Assembly (NCBI GenBank): GCA_011524855.1
Contig: WTJK01000053.1
Location: forward strand, 10,550-46,411
DNA from: Methanobacteriota archaeon
Lineage (GTDB): Archaea > Thermoplasmatota > Poseidoniia > Poseidoniales > Poseidoniaceae
Direction: 5' to 3'
DNA: 35,862 nucleotides
Position numbers and translations under genes: made by a program. Under the pieces are notes generated by a model. The model had not been told where the DNA came from and did not search any database. It saw nothing but the letters and a program-made list of their open reading frames with translations. Below, one piece after another: positions 2-6,218 of this stretch. Positions within the stretch are counted from its first letter, which is position 1. Each line of letters begins with the position of its first letter.

Positions 2-808
2 TGGAAGGAGGACGCGCTGAACCTCATCGCCCGCATGCCCCGCTTGATGGGCCTGCTGTTCCGTTACCGCGAAGGCCGCAGCACCGACATTCCAGAAGAC
101 GACTTGTCGCTGTCGATGGTGGAGCGCTTCGTGAACACACTGGCCTTCAAGGACGTGAACCGTGACCTCATGCGCCAGGTGCTCTCTGCCTACCTCGTGC
201 TCCACATGGACCATGGAGGTGGCAACCTCTCGACCTTCACGGGGAAGGCCATCGCTTCGGGCCACGCCACGGTGTATGCAGCCCTGGCTGGATCCATGAA
301 TGCGCTCTCAGGTCCCCTCCACGGAAGGGCCAACCAATCATGCTTGGAGTTCGTGCTTCGTGTCGGCACAAGCGACCCCGAGGAAGTGGAGGCGTTCGTC
401 CGAGCCGAACTGGCGGCCAAGCGACCGGTGTTCGGTTTCGGTCATGCCGTCTTGCGGGCCGAAGACCCACGAGCAACCGTTCAGTTCGCCCTTGGTGAGC
501 GGCTTTGCCCTGAGGATGAGAACTTCAAGATCATCCGAACCCTTCGGGAAGTGGCACCGCGTGTGCTGGCTGAAAACCCGAAGATTTCCAACCCCAACGC
601 CAACGTCGACATCGCCAGCGGCGCTTTGCTTCACCATGTTGGTTTCAAGGACCCCACGTATTACACCACCTTCTTCGGTTGGGCTCGTGTGGCCGGTATC
701 GGCGCACAAATCGTTGATGAGCGGTTGGTCCTCCGTGACGGCAAAGGGACGCCCATCTACCGCCCCAAGTACATTGCCGAGGCCCAGACCCTGCGTCACG
801 TTGCTTGA
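2..808 (+). CDS. gltA: Citrate synthase, mitochondrial-type, 3' part
   Basis: The frame is open from the left edge, so only the C-terminal 268 residues are visible and the start lies outside the window. Citrate synthase condenses acetyl-CoA with oxaloacetate to citrate (TCA cycle entry, cytoplasm). All three catalytic residues are seen: His in GPLHG (codon at 320-322), His in GFGHAVLR, and Asp in NVDIASG. The GHAVLR-x-x-DPR block and the YYTTFFGWARV segment near the C-terminus match the mitochondrial/type I subfamily better than the short archaeal type (family knowledge, not aligned here). No inserts or frameshifts are seen. The stop overlaps the 3' end of the convergent GDPD gene by 13 bases. 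Function is firm; the subfamily is a reading by eye. Confidence 0.93.
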   Translation, partial: WKEDALNLIARMPRLMGLLFRYREGRSTDIPEDDLSLSMVERFVNTLAFKDVNRDLMRQVLSAYLVLHMDHGGGNLSTFTGKAIASGHATVYAALAGSMNALSGPLHGRANQSCLEFVLRVGTSDPEEVEAFVRAELAAKRPVFGFGHAVLRAEDPRATVQFALGERLCPEDENFKIIRTLREVAPRVLAENPKISNPNANVDIASGALLHHVGFKDPTYYTTFFGWARVAGIGAQIVDERLVLRDGKGTPIYRPKYIAEAQTLRHVA

Positions 809-1971
809 CCGTTCAGCACGGGACGAGCGGTTTTTCCCGACCCACGATGCCCGATCAACCTCGGTGCAGCCACGGGTGGGGTGGCGCCGCTGAATCGGCT
901 CAACACGTCCTCGGTGGATTCGGTCCAATGCCACCGTTTCCGCCAACCCTCAACCAAGGTCCGCCGACGCTCGGCATCGGATTCAGCCCACGTTGGCGTT
1001 TCTCGGACCAGCGATGCCAGCACGGCACGGTGGTCGTCTTCACGTGCGGCCAACAACGTGGACCACTGGTCTTCTGTCAACGGGCGCGTCGCAGGCTGCG
1101 TCCACCGTGCGTTGCCACTCGGCAGCCACGTGAACTCGGGGTCTGCATGGTCGGTCAAGGCCGTCAGTCCTGCTCTGAGTAAACCGGTTTCCAAAGGTGG
1201 CCGAGCGGGCCACACGTAGGTCGGCATGCCCGCTCGAGCACGATGAAGTCGTTCCAACGCACGCCCCTGGAGGCCAACGCTTCGGCCCACGGGCAACCAC
1301 GCCGTGCTGGGCTGGAAGTATTCCACAGCACAGGGCAGCATCGTGCTTCCTTGGTGGAGGTGGCGTCGCCGAAGGCGTCGAAACGACGTGGTCACAAAGG
1401 AAGGCAGCACCTGCAGGCGTTGTTGCCTTCTCGAACCGTAGGGCGGGATGTAAGGGATCAATGCAGCCCACGGTCGCTTGGTTCCCGCACGTTTGGCGGA
1501 TGCTGGCATGTGCTTGTGAAAGGAATAGAACACGGCGTTCTCATGGGGGATGTCAAAGTCATCGAGCAAGGTTTCGGCCATGGTGATGGCTTTGGCAACG
1601 TGTTCAATGTGGGCTTGTTTGCCCAGAAGACCGCCACCCATGGGCGCCTTGGGATGAGGCCGCTTGATCTCAACCGTTCCCATTTTTCCAAGATTGGACC
1701 AGTGATTGAGAACCTCGGGGTGGGAAAGGAATCGTTCAAACCCGAGGAACCCGACGGCTTCGAGTTCGTCCAATGTCCACGCTTCCACCCAGGGTTCCCG
1801 GCCCTCAAGTTGGTGCTTCGGGATGGAGACATCCCGGTCGTGGTGAATGACCAGCTGCTGGTCTGCGGTGATTCGGAGGTCAAATTCCACACCGTCCATG
1901 TGCGTGATGGCGTGATGAAGGCTCTCAAGGGTGTTTTCAGGCGATTGACGCCACACCCCCTCTGCTTCCAT
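796..1971 (-). CDS. GDPD-family phosphodiesterase, apparently circularly permuted
   Basis: The 391-residue protein has glycerophosphodiester phosphodiesterase (TIM-barrel) motifs in an abnormal order. It starts at the segment that normally follows strand 1: PENTLESL (11-18), then E29-x-D31 (metal ligands), IHHD (42-45, catalytic His) and VEIK (100-103, metal ligand Glu). A late-barrel segment ending in ALTDHADPE (270-278) follows, then a helical charged stretch (about 298-360). The first-strand motif LIGHRGSGK, with the catalytic His-Arg (375-376), lies only 16 residues from the C-terminus. A stop codon two codons before the ATG rules out an in-frame N-terminal HRG. In GDPDs of the GDE1 type HRG precedes ENT, so this reads as a circular permutation cut in that loop. 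All catalytic residues are kept, so an active enzyme (glycerophosphodiester to alcohol plus glycerol phosphate) is plausible. Confidence 0.8.
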   Translation of the reverse strand: MEAEGVWRQSPENTLESLHHAITHMDGVEFDLRITADQQLVIHHDRDVSIPKHQLEGREPWVEAWTLDELEAVGFLGFERFLSHPEVLNHWSNLGKMGTVEIKRPHPKAPMGGGLLGKQAHIEHVAKAITMAETLLDDFDIPHENAVFYSFHKHMPASAKRAGTKRPWAALIPYIPPYGSRRQQRLQVLPSFVTTSFRRLRRRHLHQGSTMLPCAVEYFQPSTAWLPVGRSVGLQGRALERLHRARAGMPTYVWPARPPLETGLLRAGLTALTDHADPEFTWLPSGNARWTQPATRPLTEDQWSTLLAAREDDHRAVLASLVRETPTWAESDAERRRTLVEGWRKRWHWTESTEDVLSRFSGATPPVAAPRLIGHRGSGKTARPVLNGQAT

Positions 1972-2080: not shown

Positions 2081-3535
2081 ATGGACCCCTATGACATCAT
2101 GATGGGTCTCATCCTCGTTCTGACCCCGATCATCTGTTGGGTGTTCACGCGACATCAACCGGAACAGCGCGTGCCTTGGCGGGATTGGGCTGACGAAATC
2201 CATCGGAAGCGGTACTACCTTCATGCCATGGGCTACATCGTCATCATCCGTTGGAAGTCCTTGACGGACAAGCTCAACGAACCCATGAAGGTTCGAACAG
2301 GTCATTGGACGGAAGCGGTGTACGCGTTGGAAGGCGGAGCGACCAAGTGGGTGCAGGACACGTTCCGCAACGACATGCTCACGGAGTTCCTGAACTTCCA
2401 CTATCTCTTCATTTACTTGTTTTTGATTTACGTTACCACGGTGTACTTCGCTTTTTCAAACGACCGTGACATGACCGACAAGGTGACGCTGAATTACCTG
2501 TTGATTTACGCTGTTGCCGTCCCCTACTACCTGTTTTTCAACGTCGAAGTGACTTCTTCATGGATTCCAGGCATGGACGCACTGTTGTACCACGATGGAT
2601 GGTACACGGTGTTCTACGCCCTCCATGACCCGCTGGACAACGCTGTTCCAAGCCTGCACGTGGCGATTCCTTTCGGGATTCTCATGCTGAATTACCTCCA
2701 CGTGAAGGAACGCGGTGAGACCTTGCGTGAATGGCGGCACTGGCCATACCATTTGTTCGTGCTGTTGAACACCGTCCTGTTCGTGTTCACCATTCTGTAC
2801 TTGGGTATTCACTGGATCGTTGACATCCCCCTCGGCATGGTGGTGGGCAGCATCGGAGCGCTGTTCATTCACCATCTGCAACCACGCATGCGCAACGATC
2901 ACGGTCCAATGTTCAAGGGCGTTGACCGCACCAAAGTTCGTCGTCACGTGGTGGTGGAAGGCATCGTGGTGCTGGTGATGCTGACCCTGATGTTGATGGC
3001 CGTGAACGTTCAAGAAAACAACGTGGACGAGCGAATTTCTTACCGTTTGGGCGAAGGCGATTCAACCTTTGAAATCCTGCAAAAAGTCAATCCCGGGGAC
3101 TCGGTCACTTCCAACATCACGAACCTCAACATCGCAGGTGAATTGGAGGTGGTGGTGCTCATGGTGGAGGCCAGCGTCCCTGCCATGGAAAACGGAAGCA
3201 TCGACTGGTCCATCATGACCGAATTGGGCGACCATTACACCGTGGCGCCCCAAACCACGCTGAGCTTGGAGGTCACCTCACCCAAACTGTTCCACTACGT
3301 CGTCATGCATTATTCGGAAGGTCAAGACGCTGAAGCGGTCATGGAAGTCCGGGTGATCAACGATTACGGTGAAGACAAAATGGCGCAGGCGGTCCTGTTG
3401 AGCCTGCCCTCCCTCTGGATGACAGGGTTTGTTGTGTACCGCTTGTACCGTCTGAAGAAGGACGGTCGAAGTTGGATCGATTCCACCCCTTCTTATGTGT
3501 GGAACACCGAGGCCACCACTGAAGAAGAAGCGTGA
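2081..3535 (+). CDS. PAP2-superfamily membrane protein with C-terminal ectodomain
   Basis: This 484-residue multi-pass protein has TM segments near 5-22, 104-125, 136-154, 189-206, 225-242 and 246-263. PAP2-type motifs are PSLHVA (190-195, His193) and GIHWIVD (242-248, His244, Asp248). The classical first motif (K-x6-RP) is not evident, as in the Aur1/inositolphosphoceramide-synthase-like branch. A role in lipid phosphate hydrolysis or phospho-headgroup transfer at the membrane is inferred from the family; the substrate is unknown. After one more TM (about 294-311) a predicted beta-rich domain (about 315-435) faces one side and is closed by a last TM near 440-460. The tatC gene starts 4 nt after the stop, so the two are probably cotranscribed. 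Confidence 0.82.
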   Translation: MDPYDIMMGLILVLTPIICWVFTRHQPEQRVPWRDWADEIHRKRYYLHAMGYIVIIRWKSLTDKLNEPMKVRTGHWTEAVYALEGGATKWVQDTFRNDMLTEFLNFHYLFIYLFLIYVTTVYFAFSNDRDMTDKVTLNYLLIYAVAVPYYLFFNVEVTSSWIPGMDALLYHDGWYTVFYALHDPLDNAVPSLHVAIPFGILMLNYLHVKERGETLREWRHWPYHLFVLLNTVLFVFTILYLGIHWIVDIPLGMVVGSIGALFIHHLQPRMRNDHGPMFKGVDRTKVRRHVVVEGIVVLVMLTLMLMAVNVQENNVDERISYRLGEGDSTFEILQKVNPGDSVTSNITNLNIAGELEVVVLMVEASVPAMENGSIDWSIMTELGDHYTVAPQTTLSLEVTSPKLFHYVVMHYSEGQDAEAVMEVRVINDYGEDKMAQAVLLSLPSLWMTGFVVYRLYRLKKDGRSWIDSTPSYVWNTEATTEEEA

Positions 3536-3539
3536 ACCC

Positions 3540-4349
3540 ATGTTGTCCGGCGGCGCAGAGGATTCCATCAACCGATTGATGGCCTCGCCGGGCGGTGCCT
3601 TGCTGACCTCGCTACAACAAGCAGTTCAGCGGCATTTCAAGGTCTACGCAGCCCTGTTCTTGGTCGGCTTCGTAACGTCCTTCCCCCTCACGGCGACCGT
3701 GGTTGAATGGTTGATATCGGGCGACCGGTTACCCTCCGGTGTTGACATCATTGTGGTGTCACCGGTGGAGTTTCTCTTTCTCCAACTTCGGATGGCTGCC
3801 TCGTTTGGCCTGTTCCTCGTGGGTGTTGTGTTTGTCATGCATGTGGCGATTCGCGGACGACATCATGAGGCGGTTCAAGCTCGCATCGCTGAATTGAACC
3901 TCGTGCTTCCGAGGCCAGGTCCAACCACGGTCCTGACGGCGCTGAGCGTGGTCATCCTGGCGTTGGCAGGTGTTGCGTACGCTTGGGAGGGCTTGACGCC
4001 TCTCCTGTTGGCATACCTCACTGAAGACGCACAAGGCGTGGGGTTGTCCACTGAGTGGCGCTTGTCGGGCTATGTTGGGTTCATTCTCAGTTTGGTGCTG
4101 GCCTCCGTCATCGGGTTTCAAACGCCGGTCATCACCACGCTTGCCTTGCGGCTCCACATCGTTGAGCGAGGGGTGCTGCGAGGATTACGACGGCATGTGT
4201 GGTTCGCTGCGTTCGTCTTGGGAGCCTTGTTGTCACCGCCAGACCCGTTGTCGCTGTTTTTGGTGGCGTTGCCGGTCATCGTGCTGTTTGAGGCTGCGTT
4301 GGCTGTGGACGGTTGGATCAGGGATGAAACACCGAAAGCAGCGCCGTGA
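3540..4349 (+). CDS. tatC: Sec-independent protein translocase TatC
   Basis: This 269-residue polytopic protein is recognised as TatC by the block FQTP (193-196) followed by ER-x6-RR, then a segment with SPPDPLSLFLVALP and a closing LFE. That order matches the TM4 to TM6 region of the twin-arginine receptor, which binds Tat signal peptides and recruits TatA to export folded proteins. The SPVEFL stretch (74-79) fits the first periplasmic loop region. The ATG at 3540 was chosen over an ATG at 3495 because the latter lies inside the PAP2 gene. Gln194 stands where most TatC proteins have a conserved Glu (F-E-x-P). No tatA is in the window. The 3' end overlaps the convergent PHP gene by 32 bases. 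Confidence 0.82.
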   Translation: MLSGGAEDSINRLMASPGGALLTSLQQAVQRHFKVYAALFLVGFVTSFPLTATVVEWLISGDRLPSGVDIIVVSPVEFLFLQLRMAASFGLFLVGVVFVMHVAIRGRHHEAVQARIAELNLVLPRPGPTTVLTALSVVILALAGVAYAWEGLTPLLLAYLTEDAQGVGLSTEWRLSGYVGFILSLVLASVIGFQTPVITTLALRLHIVERGVLRGLRRHVWFAAFVLGALLSPPDPLSLFLVALPVIVLFEAALAVDGWIRDETPKAAP

Positions 4350-5228: not shown

Positions 5229-6218
5229 TCAAGCGTTTGTGAAGACCTCGTCAAGGTCAGGCAGGGCCGGCAGGTCCAACGGTGCATCGATGGAGGCCGT
5301 TGAGCCGGGTGAAGGAGGCGCTGGTGTGGGCGGCACCGCCGAGTCGGAATCAGCGAAAAGGTCGTCCAGGCTGGGCAGTTCAACGGCAGTGGACGGTTCG
5401 GGCTGTGGCGTGGTCGGAGAAACACCCTCCCTGGGAGTTGTTGTGAACAAACCGTCGATGGATGGCAGGTCCAAAGCCGGTGGTGCAGCATGCGAAAGGG
5501 TCGGTTGAGGCTGCGAATTGGTGGGCTGGTTGTTCACCGCAGAAACGGTCGCAGCGGAAGGAAGGGGTACGCTCGCCACCCCTTCCGTCACGAACACCCG
5601 GTTGGGCTCCAAGCCCGGAATGGTCGTCGGGTCGAGAAGGTCCTCTTGGGCCTGACCAGGCAACGGTACCGGTTGAACGACCAAGCGCTGAACGCTTTTC
5701 CCGTCCTCGGGCTGGGTGGGGTTGGCTGGCCGGATGGCGGCTTGGTACGTCAGCGAGGATGCAGACGCATCAGCGGTGCGGCCAACAGGTTGGGGTGTGG
5801 AGGCAGCGACCTCCGTGGCGAGACGAGGCGAGGGGGTGTCGCCAACACCCAAGGTCGCCATCGCATCGTTGATGTTGCCGCTTTGCGTTGTCGTCGTTCC
5901 AAGAATCGAGGTCAAGATCGAGGCCGTGGTTGGGCTGATGTTTTCTGATCCGGTTCGGCCAAGACCTACCGTGGTACGTCCGCCTTCGTTGGTCTGCGCG
6001 TGCCGTGGATTGAACTCCGGAACGTCACGCTCCCGATTGGCCAACCATCGAACCAACAGCATGACGGCCACGCCAGCCAGCAAACCGTGTTCTTCGACGC
6101 TGAGTCCTTCTGAACCGAACAACGTGAGGTTCAGGTTGATGGCCGTGACGAGCAGCCCGGATGCCGCCAACAACGTGGCCATCGCAGCCAGTCGGGGTGC
6201 CTTCGGGTCGTGTGCCAC
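5229..6218 (-). CDS. Membrane-anchored disordered protein with repeated short motifs
   Basis: No family was recognised. The 329-residue product has two TM helices (about 10-32 and 43-60), then about 265 residues rich in Pro, Thr, Ser, Ala and acidic residues with no obvious folded domain. Near the C-terminus a short acidic-hydrophobic motif occurs three times: LDLPSIDGLF (249-258), VELPSLDDLF (279-288) and LDLPALPDLDEVF (314-326), about 30-35 residues apart. This looks like a set of docking motifs for a partner on one side of the membrane; that is inference. The start is GTG at 6218, supported by a GAATATAA box 25 nt upstream. It lies between folD (28 nt) and the PHP gene. Confidence 0.7.
   Translation of the reverse strand: MAHDPKAPRLAAMATLLAASGLLVTAINLNLTLFGSEGLSVEEHGLLAGVAVMLLVRWLANRERDVPEFNPRHAQTNEGGRTTVGLGRTGSENISPTTASILTSILGTTTTQSGNINDAMATLGVGDTPSPRLATEVAASTPQPVGRTADASASSLTYQAAIRPANPTQPEDGKSVQRLVVQPVPLPGQAQEDLLDPTTIPGLEPNRVFVTEGVASVPLPSAATVSAVNNQPTNSQPQPTLSHAAPPALDLPSIDGLFTTTPREGVSPTTPQPEPSTAVELPSLDDLFADSDSAVPPTPAPPSPGSTASIDAPLDLPALPDLDEVFTNA

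Follow-up and report, generated by a model that had tools for sequence, protein, structure and literature searches.

A probable natural circular permutant of the GDPD barrel in Poseidoniales archaea

The window, by which we mean the whole stretch of 35,862 nucleotides analysed here, comes from contig WTJK01000053.1 of a Poseidoniaceae genome (GCA_011524855.1). Near its start, a reverse-strand gene encodes a protein with the motifs of GDPD enzymes in an unusual order. Three families of the class are called f1, f2 and f3 below; judging from titles and taxonomy, we take them to be Poseidoniaceae, Thalassarchaeaceae and MGIII, respectively. The features of the locus are the following, with residues numbered on the GDPD protein and the basis of each assignment in brackets.

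2-808, forward strand: citrate synthase gene (3' part), the convergent neighbour, overlapping the GDPD gene by 13 bases (Pfam PF00285)
796-1971, reverse strand: gene of the very probably circularly permuted GDPD, 391 residues (ORF, Pfam, relatives)
829-867, reverse strand: residues 369-381, C-terminal barrel strand β1 (372-375) with G374-H375-R376-G377 (profiles, AlphaFold2)
841-849, reverse strand: HRG, residues 375-377, outside the citrate synthase gene, which ends at 808
868-1143, reverse strand: residues 277-368, helical connection from β8 to β1 (AlphaFold2 helices; no match to the canonical profile)
1153-1164, reverse strand: strand β8, residues 270-273 (AlphaFold2; aligned with the canonical TD end)
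1210-1212, reverse strand: W254, end of β7 (251-254) (aligned with the canonical W of VxxWT)
1663-1671, reverse strand: E101-x-K103 on strand β3 (97-102) (invariant; aligned with the canonical E-x-K)
1837-1845, reverse strand: H43-H44-D45, H44 being the presumed second catalytic histidine (H44 in 68 of 68 alignment rows)
1879-1887, reverse strand: E29-x-D31 on strand β2 (27-34), presumed metal ligands (invariant in alignments A1 and A2; alignment to the canonical GDPD profile)
1930-1941, reverse strand: PENT, residues 11-14, now N-terminal, just ahead of helix α1 (15-24) (sequence, AlphaFold2 model)
2081-3535, forward strand: PAP2-like membrane protein, 484 residues, divergent from the GDPD gene and found beside it in many f1 genomes (PF01569 scores 26.3 bits, slightly under the cut-off of 27.2)

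Beyond the GDPD gene, the TatC ORF in its listed extent (3495-4349) overlaps the end of the PAP2-like ORF. The ORF at 5229-6218 encodes 329 residues rich in Pro, Ser and Thr; this product has hydrophobic stretches at its N-terminus and matches no Pfam family.

The ORF at 796-1971 contains no internal stop. The complete catalytic set of GDPDs (HR, ENT, E-x-D, the histidine of the insert and E-x-K) is present in it, though not in the usual linear order with HRG before ENT: ENT occupies residues 12-14 and HRG residues 375-377. Since we regard the usual order as part of what defines the canonical architecture, the protein is filed as a permuted variant and not as a canonical GDPD. A first-pass annotation had placed PENT at residues 11-14 and HRG at 375-377 of 391, with E-x-D, HHD and E-x-K between them in normal order and every catalytic residue kept, and in all of this it was correct. 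Residues E12, N13, E29, D31, H44, E101, K103, H375 and R376 are invariant in both alignments; the rows of A1 were picked by hand and those of A2 selected for the C-terminal motif, so that the count for HRG free of this selection is the one over all permuted frames read through to the C-terminus, 139 of 140.

Pfam recognizes the protein by a single match, PF03009, which scores 42.6 bits against a curated cut-off of 23.6, albeit over residues 9-74 only. This match spans profile positions 7-69 of 244, and the first six columns are thus missing at the N-terminus. It is also the only PF03009 match in the whole source genome (1.94 Mb, 83 contigs). The NCBIfam equivalogs of LpgD/UgpQ type stay below their cut-offs (NF053857, 24.4 against 450 bits; NF006989, 20.1 against 264 bits).

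The first-pass annotation had proposed a search for the same order in related genomes, and there it was found. Reading frames of at least 100 residues in 237 loci of Poseidoniales and other Thermoplasmatota (L001-L237), we obtained 154 unique homologous frames, the window's own included; they are the best matches of several searches and not a random sample. In 139 of them (136 complete and three without a 5' end) HRG lies within the last 20 residues. The other 15 comprise three frames cut by a contig end, one that stops early (L199) and 11 canonical GDPDs, three of which (L220, L221 and L223) fall outside the scripted motif and were assigned by eye. All 22 Poseidoniales genera sampled, 11 of f1 and 11 of f2, yielded one or more frames with HRG at the C-terminus. 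Protein matches occur in 28 of the 30 genomes of the genus and 157 of the 170 of the family, and a 20-row profile matches 272 of the 292 genomes of the order, with all 22 genera represented. The best 80 of 254 confirmed relatives are all titled Poseidoniales, Poseidoniaceae, Poseidonia or only Euryarchaeota/euryarchaeote.

The surroundings of the gene are shared as well. At these best 80 loci, citrate synthase is found in 78, about 3 kb away in nine of them, and the PAP2-like gene lies upstream in 77. Citrate synthase recurs at 33 of 40 further f1 loci, whose genomes overlap the 80-locus set, and at 24 of 25 f2 loci. Two f2 loci were tested for their divergent neighbour, and in both an Atg22-like transporter takes the place of the PAP2-like protein (L184:2726-4132 and L189:2684-4096). 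From the shared synteny we infer one permutation event, before the two Poseidoniales families separated. A tandem duplication that then lost its two ends would account for the order; no duplication intermediate occurs among the 154 frames read.

Among the frames read outside these two families, the enzyme is met in its usual form. In a search of the phylum (389 genomes), the full-length matches listed are all in the two Poseidoniales families, and those listed from the third family of the class and from other Thermoplasmatota are short and N-terminal. Frames read outside the order carry HRG or HKG before ENT or a variant of it (END, DNT), i.e. the usual sequence order. PF03009 matched 132 of 292 genomes. 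Among the matches listed, the start of the PF03009 match is at position 1 in proteins from outside the order, at 6-11 in Poseidoniales frames of 343-592 residues, except one at 2 (G105), and at 2-3 in the short f2 GDPDs, with one (G173) at 7. The G105 frame (L131) has no HRG at this N-terminal position.

Canonical members of the same enzyme family, with His-Arg before ENT or its variants, include the f3 GDPDs (L220, L221, L274-L277) and, in the f2 genus g19, a TM-anchored GDPD (L201, L207, L208). The six short f2 GDPDs read (L268-L273) also follow the canonical order; their frames have 193-236 residues, carry GHRLG(A/T)SG in place of HRG and match only about the first 120-155 of the 235 positions of the canonical model. 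In several cases, canonical f2 GDPDs share a genome with permuted ones. A search for viral relatives gave 12 pattern matches, none of them confirmed.

The frame L199 (genome G172, f2) is the sole one of its kind: with 348 residues, it ends before the HRG strand and is not cut by a contig end. No related HRG follows it downstream in any frame of that strand. The same genome also encodes one of the short canonical-order GDPDs (L268).

We compared the protein with a canonical HMM made from 22 unique frames; 26 of the 41 loci examined had passed a filter requiring HRG before ENT. Residues 5-119 align to model positions 10-111 with 50.3 bits, and a second piece, residues 371-380, to positions 4-13 with -2.7 bits, which alone is not significant. 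When the C-terminal 12-mer is set before PENT, the score rises by 17.0 bits, the best result of all 380 12-mers of the protein. The same move in 135 relatives gains 4.7-15.9 bits (median 13.3); for 2,700 shuffled 12-mers, the median gain is 1.8, the 95th percentile 6.1 and the maximum 15.0. The gain exceeds all 20 of the relative's own shuffles in 131 of the 135, and in 130 the best-scoring piece begins four residues before the G of GHRG.

Comparison of profiles gives the same picture. Residues 7-276 align to canonical columns 12-227 (E 2e-15) and, in a second alignment that is weak alone (probability 10%), residues 369-380 fall on the missing columns 2-13. The profile-profile score is 111.9 for the native order, 131.9 with the strand moved and 113.2 with a control piece; like the 12-mer test, this comparison omits the two short new tails. 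The canonical profile leaves over residues 277-368, the connection. Rotation of the whole sequence brings no gain against the canonical HMM for the window protein, as about 25 residues of the new termini then lie between HRG and PENT; for the 135 relatives, rotation adds a median of 1.6 bits, with a higher score in 124, against 0.1 for a shuffled piece.

An AlphaFold2 model computed from 72 sequences (pLDDT 89.6, pTM 0.89) predicts a (β/α)8 barrel of GDPD type, with strands 27-34, 97-102, 146-150, 168-170, 212-215, 251-254 and 270-273, completed by the C-terminal strand 372-375. Confidence is high at the latter, residues 371-380 averaging a pLDDT of 94; residues 1-4 and 387-391 fall below 50. 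Within the connection, helices are predicted at 300-308, 314-324, 333-347 and 353-359. Foldseek assigns the same fold: the 50 PDB matches listed are led by GDPDs and comprise 42 GDPD/GlpQ or similar proteins, five phospholipases D, one phage K protein and two glucanases, with target TM values up to 0.67; as the Foldseek alignment is sequential, the placement of β1 lies outside what such a match shows. When residues 1-365 alone are modelled, the fold persists (pLDDT 88.7), and β8 and β5 are both cut to two residues; because β5 shortens as well, the loss of residues 366-391 does not single out β8.

For covariation, we used 139 sequences (effective number 89). Out of 74,305 pairs, 271 (β8)-372 (β1) takes a rank between 1 and 4 in six settings of mean-field DCA, and only 1,436 by mutual information. 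On the tree, the two sites change on the same branch six times against 2.0-2.4 expected (P = 0.008), with a tree-based rank of about 2,300 of 51,604. This signal, strong by DCA, weak by mutual information and modest on the tree, is supporting evidence only. Altogether, models and covariation favour a C-terminal strand set beside β8, as a barrel would require. The first-pass annotation had taken the C-terminal strand for barrel strand 1 and put the cut between HRG and ENT: the cut is where it was predicted, and the strand assignment agrees both with the canonical columns onto which the C-terminal piece falls and with the predicted strand.

Several readings compete with a circular permutation. 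The window belongs to a draft genome in 83 contigs, 84% complete, and an assembly or frameshift artefact might be suspected at the locus; it can be set aside with near certainty, given that the order is common to independent genomes, including one assembled as a single 2.06-Mb contig (G064/L058; CM001443.1/L108), and that the neighbours are conserved. Misassembly, and the frameshift that the first-pass annotation had considered, are ruled out on these grounds. A wrong start codon is ruled out too: in five frames only six to nine in-frame residues precede EN(T/S), one of them (L059) starting MWQQAPENT, and N-termini as short as these mean that, for the family as a whole, no HRG is concealed ahead of a misplaced start. 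In a single genome (L021, again as L090), SHRG does occur in frame ahead of the probable start, which we count as coincidence since none of the other 138 frames has it. The ORF with HRG at its C-terminus is real.

It could also be that a former GDPD has lost β1 and that the C-terminal HRG serves another role, e.g. in a binding tail. The restriction of the Pfam match to residues 9-74, the insignificant score of the C-terminal piece alone and an activity deduced from sequence agree with such a loss, which we nevertheless consider very improbable: the catalytic Glu, Asp and His are invariant, and the columns on which the C-terminal piece scores are precisely those of canonical β1. Somewhat less remote, if still improbable, is a domain-swapped dimer in which the C-terminal strand would complete the barrel of a second subunit instead of its own. 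A domain-swapped TIM barrel is reported for pneumococcal TrpA (PMC7008512), and conservation and covariation are blind to docking in cis or in trans; against this, the position of the strand is confidently predicted in the AlphaFold2 model of the monomer. We conclude that the protein is very probably a natural circular permutant of GDPD, and the circular-permutation reading of the first-pass annotation is supported by the arrangement conserved throughout Poseidoniales, the profile mapping and the AlphaFold2 model.

The permuted chain starts with PENT and α1, continues with β2 to β8 in normal order and the helical connection 277-368, and ends with β1, which would close the barrel between β8 and β2. 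The β1-α1 loop of TIM barrels lies on the catalytic face. It is in this catalytic loop that the new termini are found, and consequently the catalytic His375-Arg376 is among the last parts of the chain to be made. Across the 139 frames, 5 to 16 residues follow HRG, and about 60 to 103 separate the TD of β8 from it. The form of genus g3, with 337-338 residues, lies at the short end of this range and also adjoins citrate synthase. In this short form (L035:755-1765, L036-L041, L043), the connection is about 40 residues shorter; at L035, both long and short forms are present.

The protein is probably an active metal-dependent GDPD, and we read its chemistry by analogy with LpgD of Staphylococcus aureus. 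In LpgD (PMC10404611), the 2-hydroxyl is activated by His51 together with the metal, and general acid and base catalysis falls to His93, a residue of the GDPD insert; Glu78 and His93 are 15 residues apart, as are Glu29 and His44 here. We presume that His375 corresponds to His51 and His44 to His93, where the identity of LpgD His51 with the HRG histidine, like the role of Glu101 as a metal ligand, is our own reading. Together with a divalent metal bound by Glu29, Asp31 and Glu101, His375 would then activate the attacking group. His44 would serve as general acid and general base, and the substrate, either a glycerophosphodiester or a lysophospholipid, would be converted to a glycerol phosphate and an alcohol. 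More speculatively, and we hold it unlikely, the opened β1-α1 loop may alter the active-site entrance in favour of a membrane-derived or lyso-type substrate, supplying glycerol phosphate, with the barrel and metal site forming only after the chain is complete, since the catalytic histidine sits on the last strand made.

This natural permutation of an enzyme, cut inside a catalytic loop, is common to all 22 genera of Poseidoniales sampled, in a protein of which Pfam covers only a sixth of the length. Its canonical relatives in the same class make it a defined case for comparing folding, active-site termini and the freedom of the connection. The permuted GDPD also bears on the handling of glycerol phosphate in Poseidoniales, reported to be without glycerol-1-phosphate dehydrogenase (PMC7852524); if the substrate reading is true, it would be a source of glycerol phosphate in these archaea.

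Circular permutation of TIM barrels is already known. GH70 enzymes, for instance, are permuted relative to GH13. For GDPDs, we found no report in the literature searched, where broader result lists were covered in part; there is no permuted GDPD in the part of PMC3482391 consulted, and neither GDPD nor phosphodiesterase occurs in the main text of CIRPIN (PMC12667903) as far as it was covered.

With GDPDs of family PF03009, such as TM1621 of Thermotoga maritima (PDB 1o1z, the best Foldseek match), Bacillus GlpQ (5t91) and S. aureus LpgD (8ghh), the protein shares the predicted barrel, PENT, E-x-D, the second histidine, E-x-K and a tryptophan near β7. Contrary to them, its β1 with HRG is C-terminal, its termini are at the catalytic face and about 90 extra residues lead from β8 to β1. 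Transaldolase, compared with class I aldolase (PMC2213659), and GH70 enzymes (PMC9732880) are natural TIM-barrel circular permutants, and the protein has in common with them a barrel that is kept while the order of its units is rotated. Those permutants belong to other families, however; here it is a GDPD that is rotated, by one strand, with the cut in the catalytic loop.
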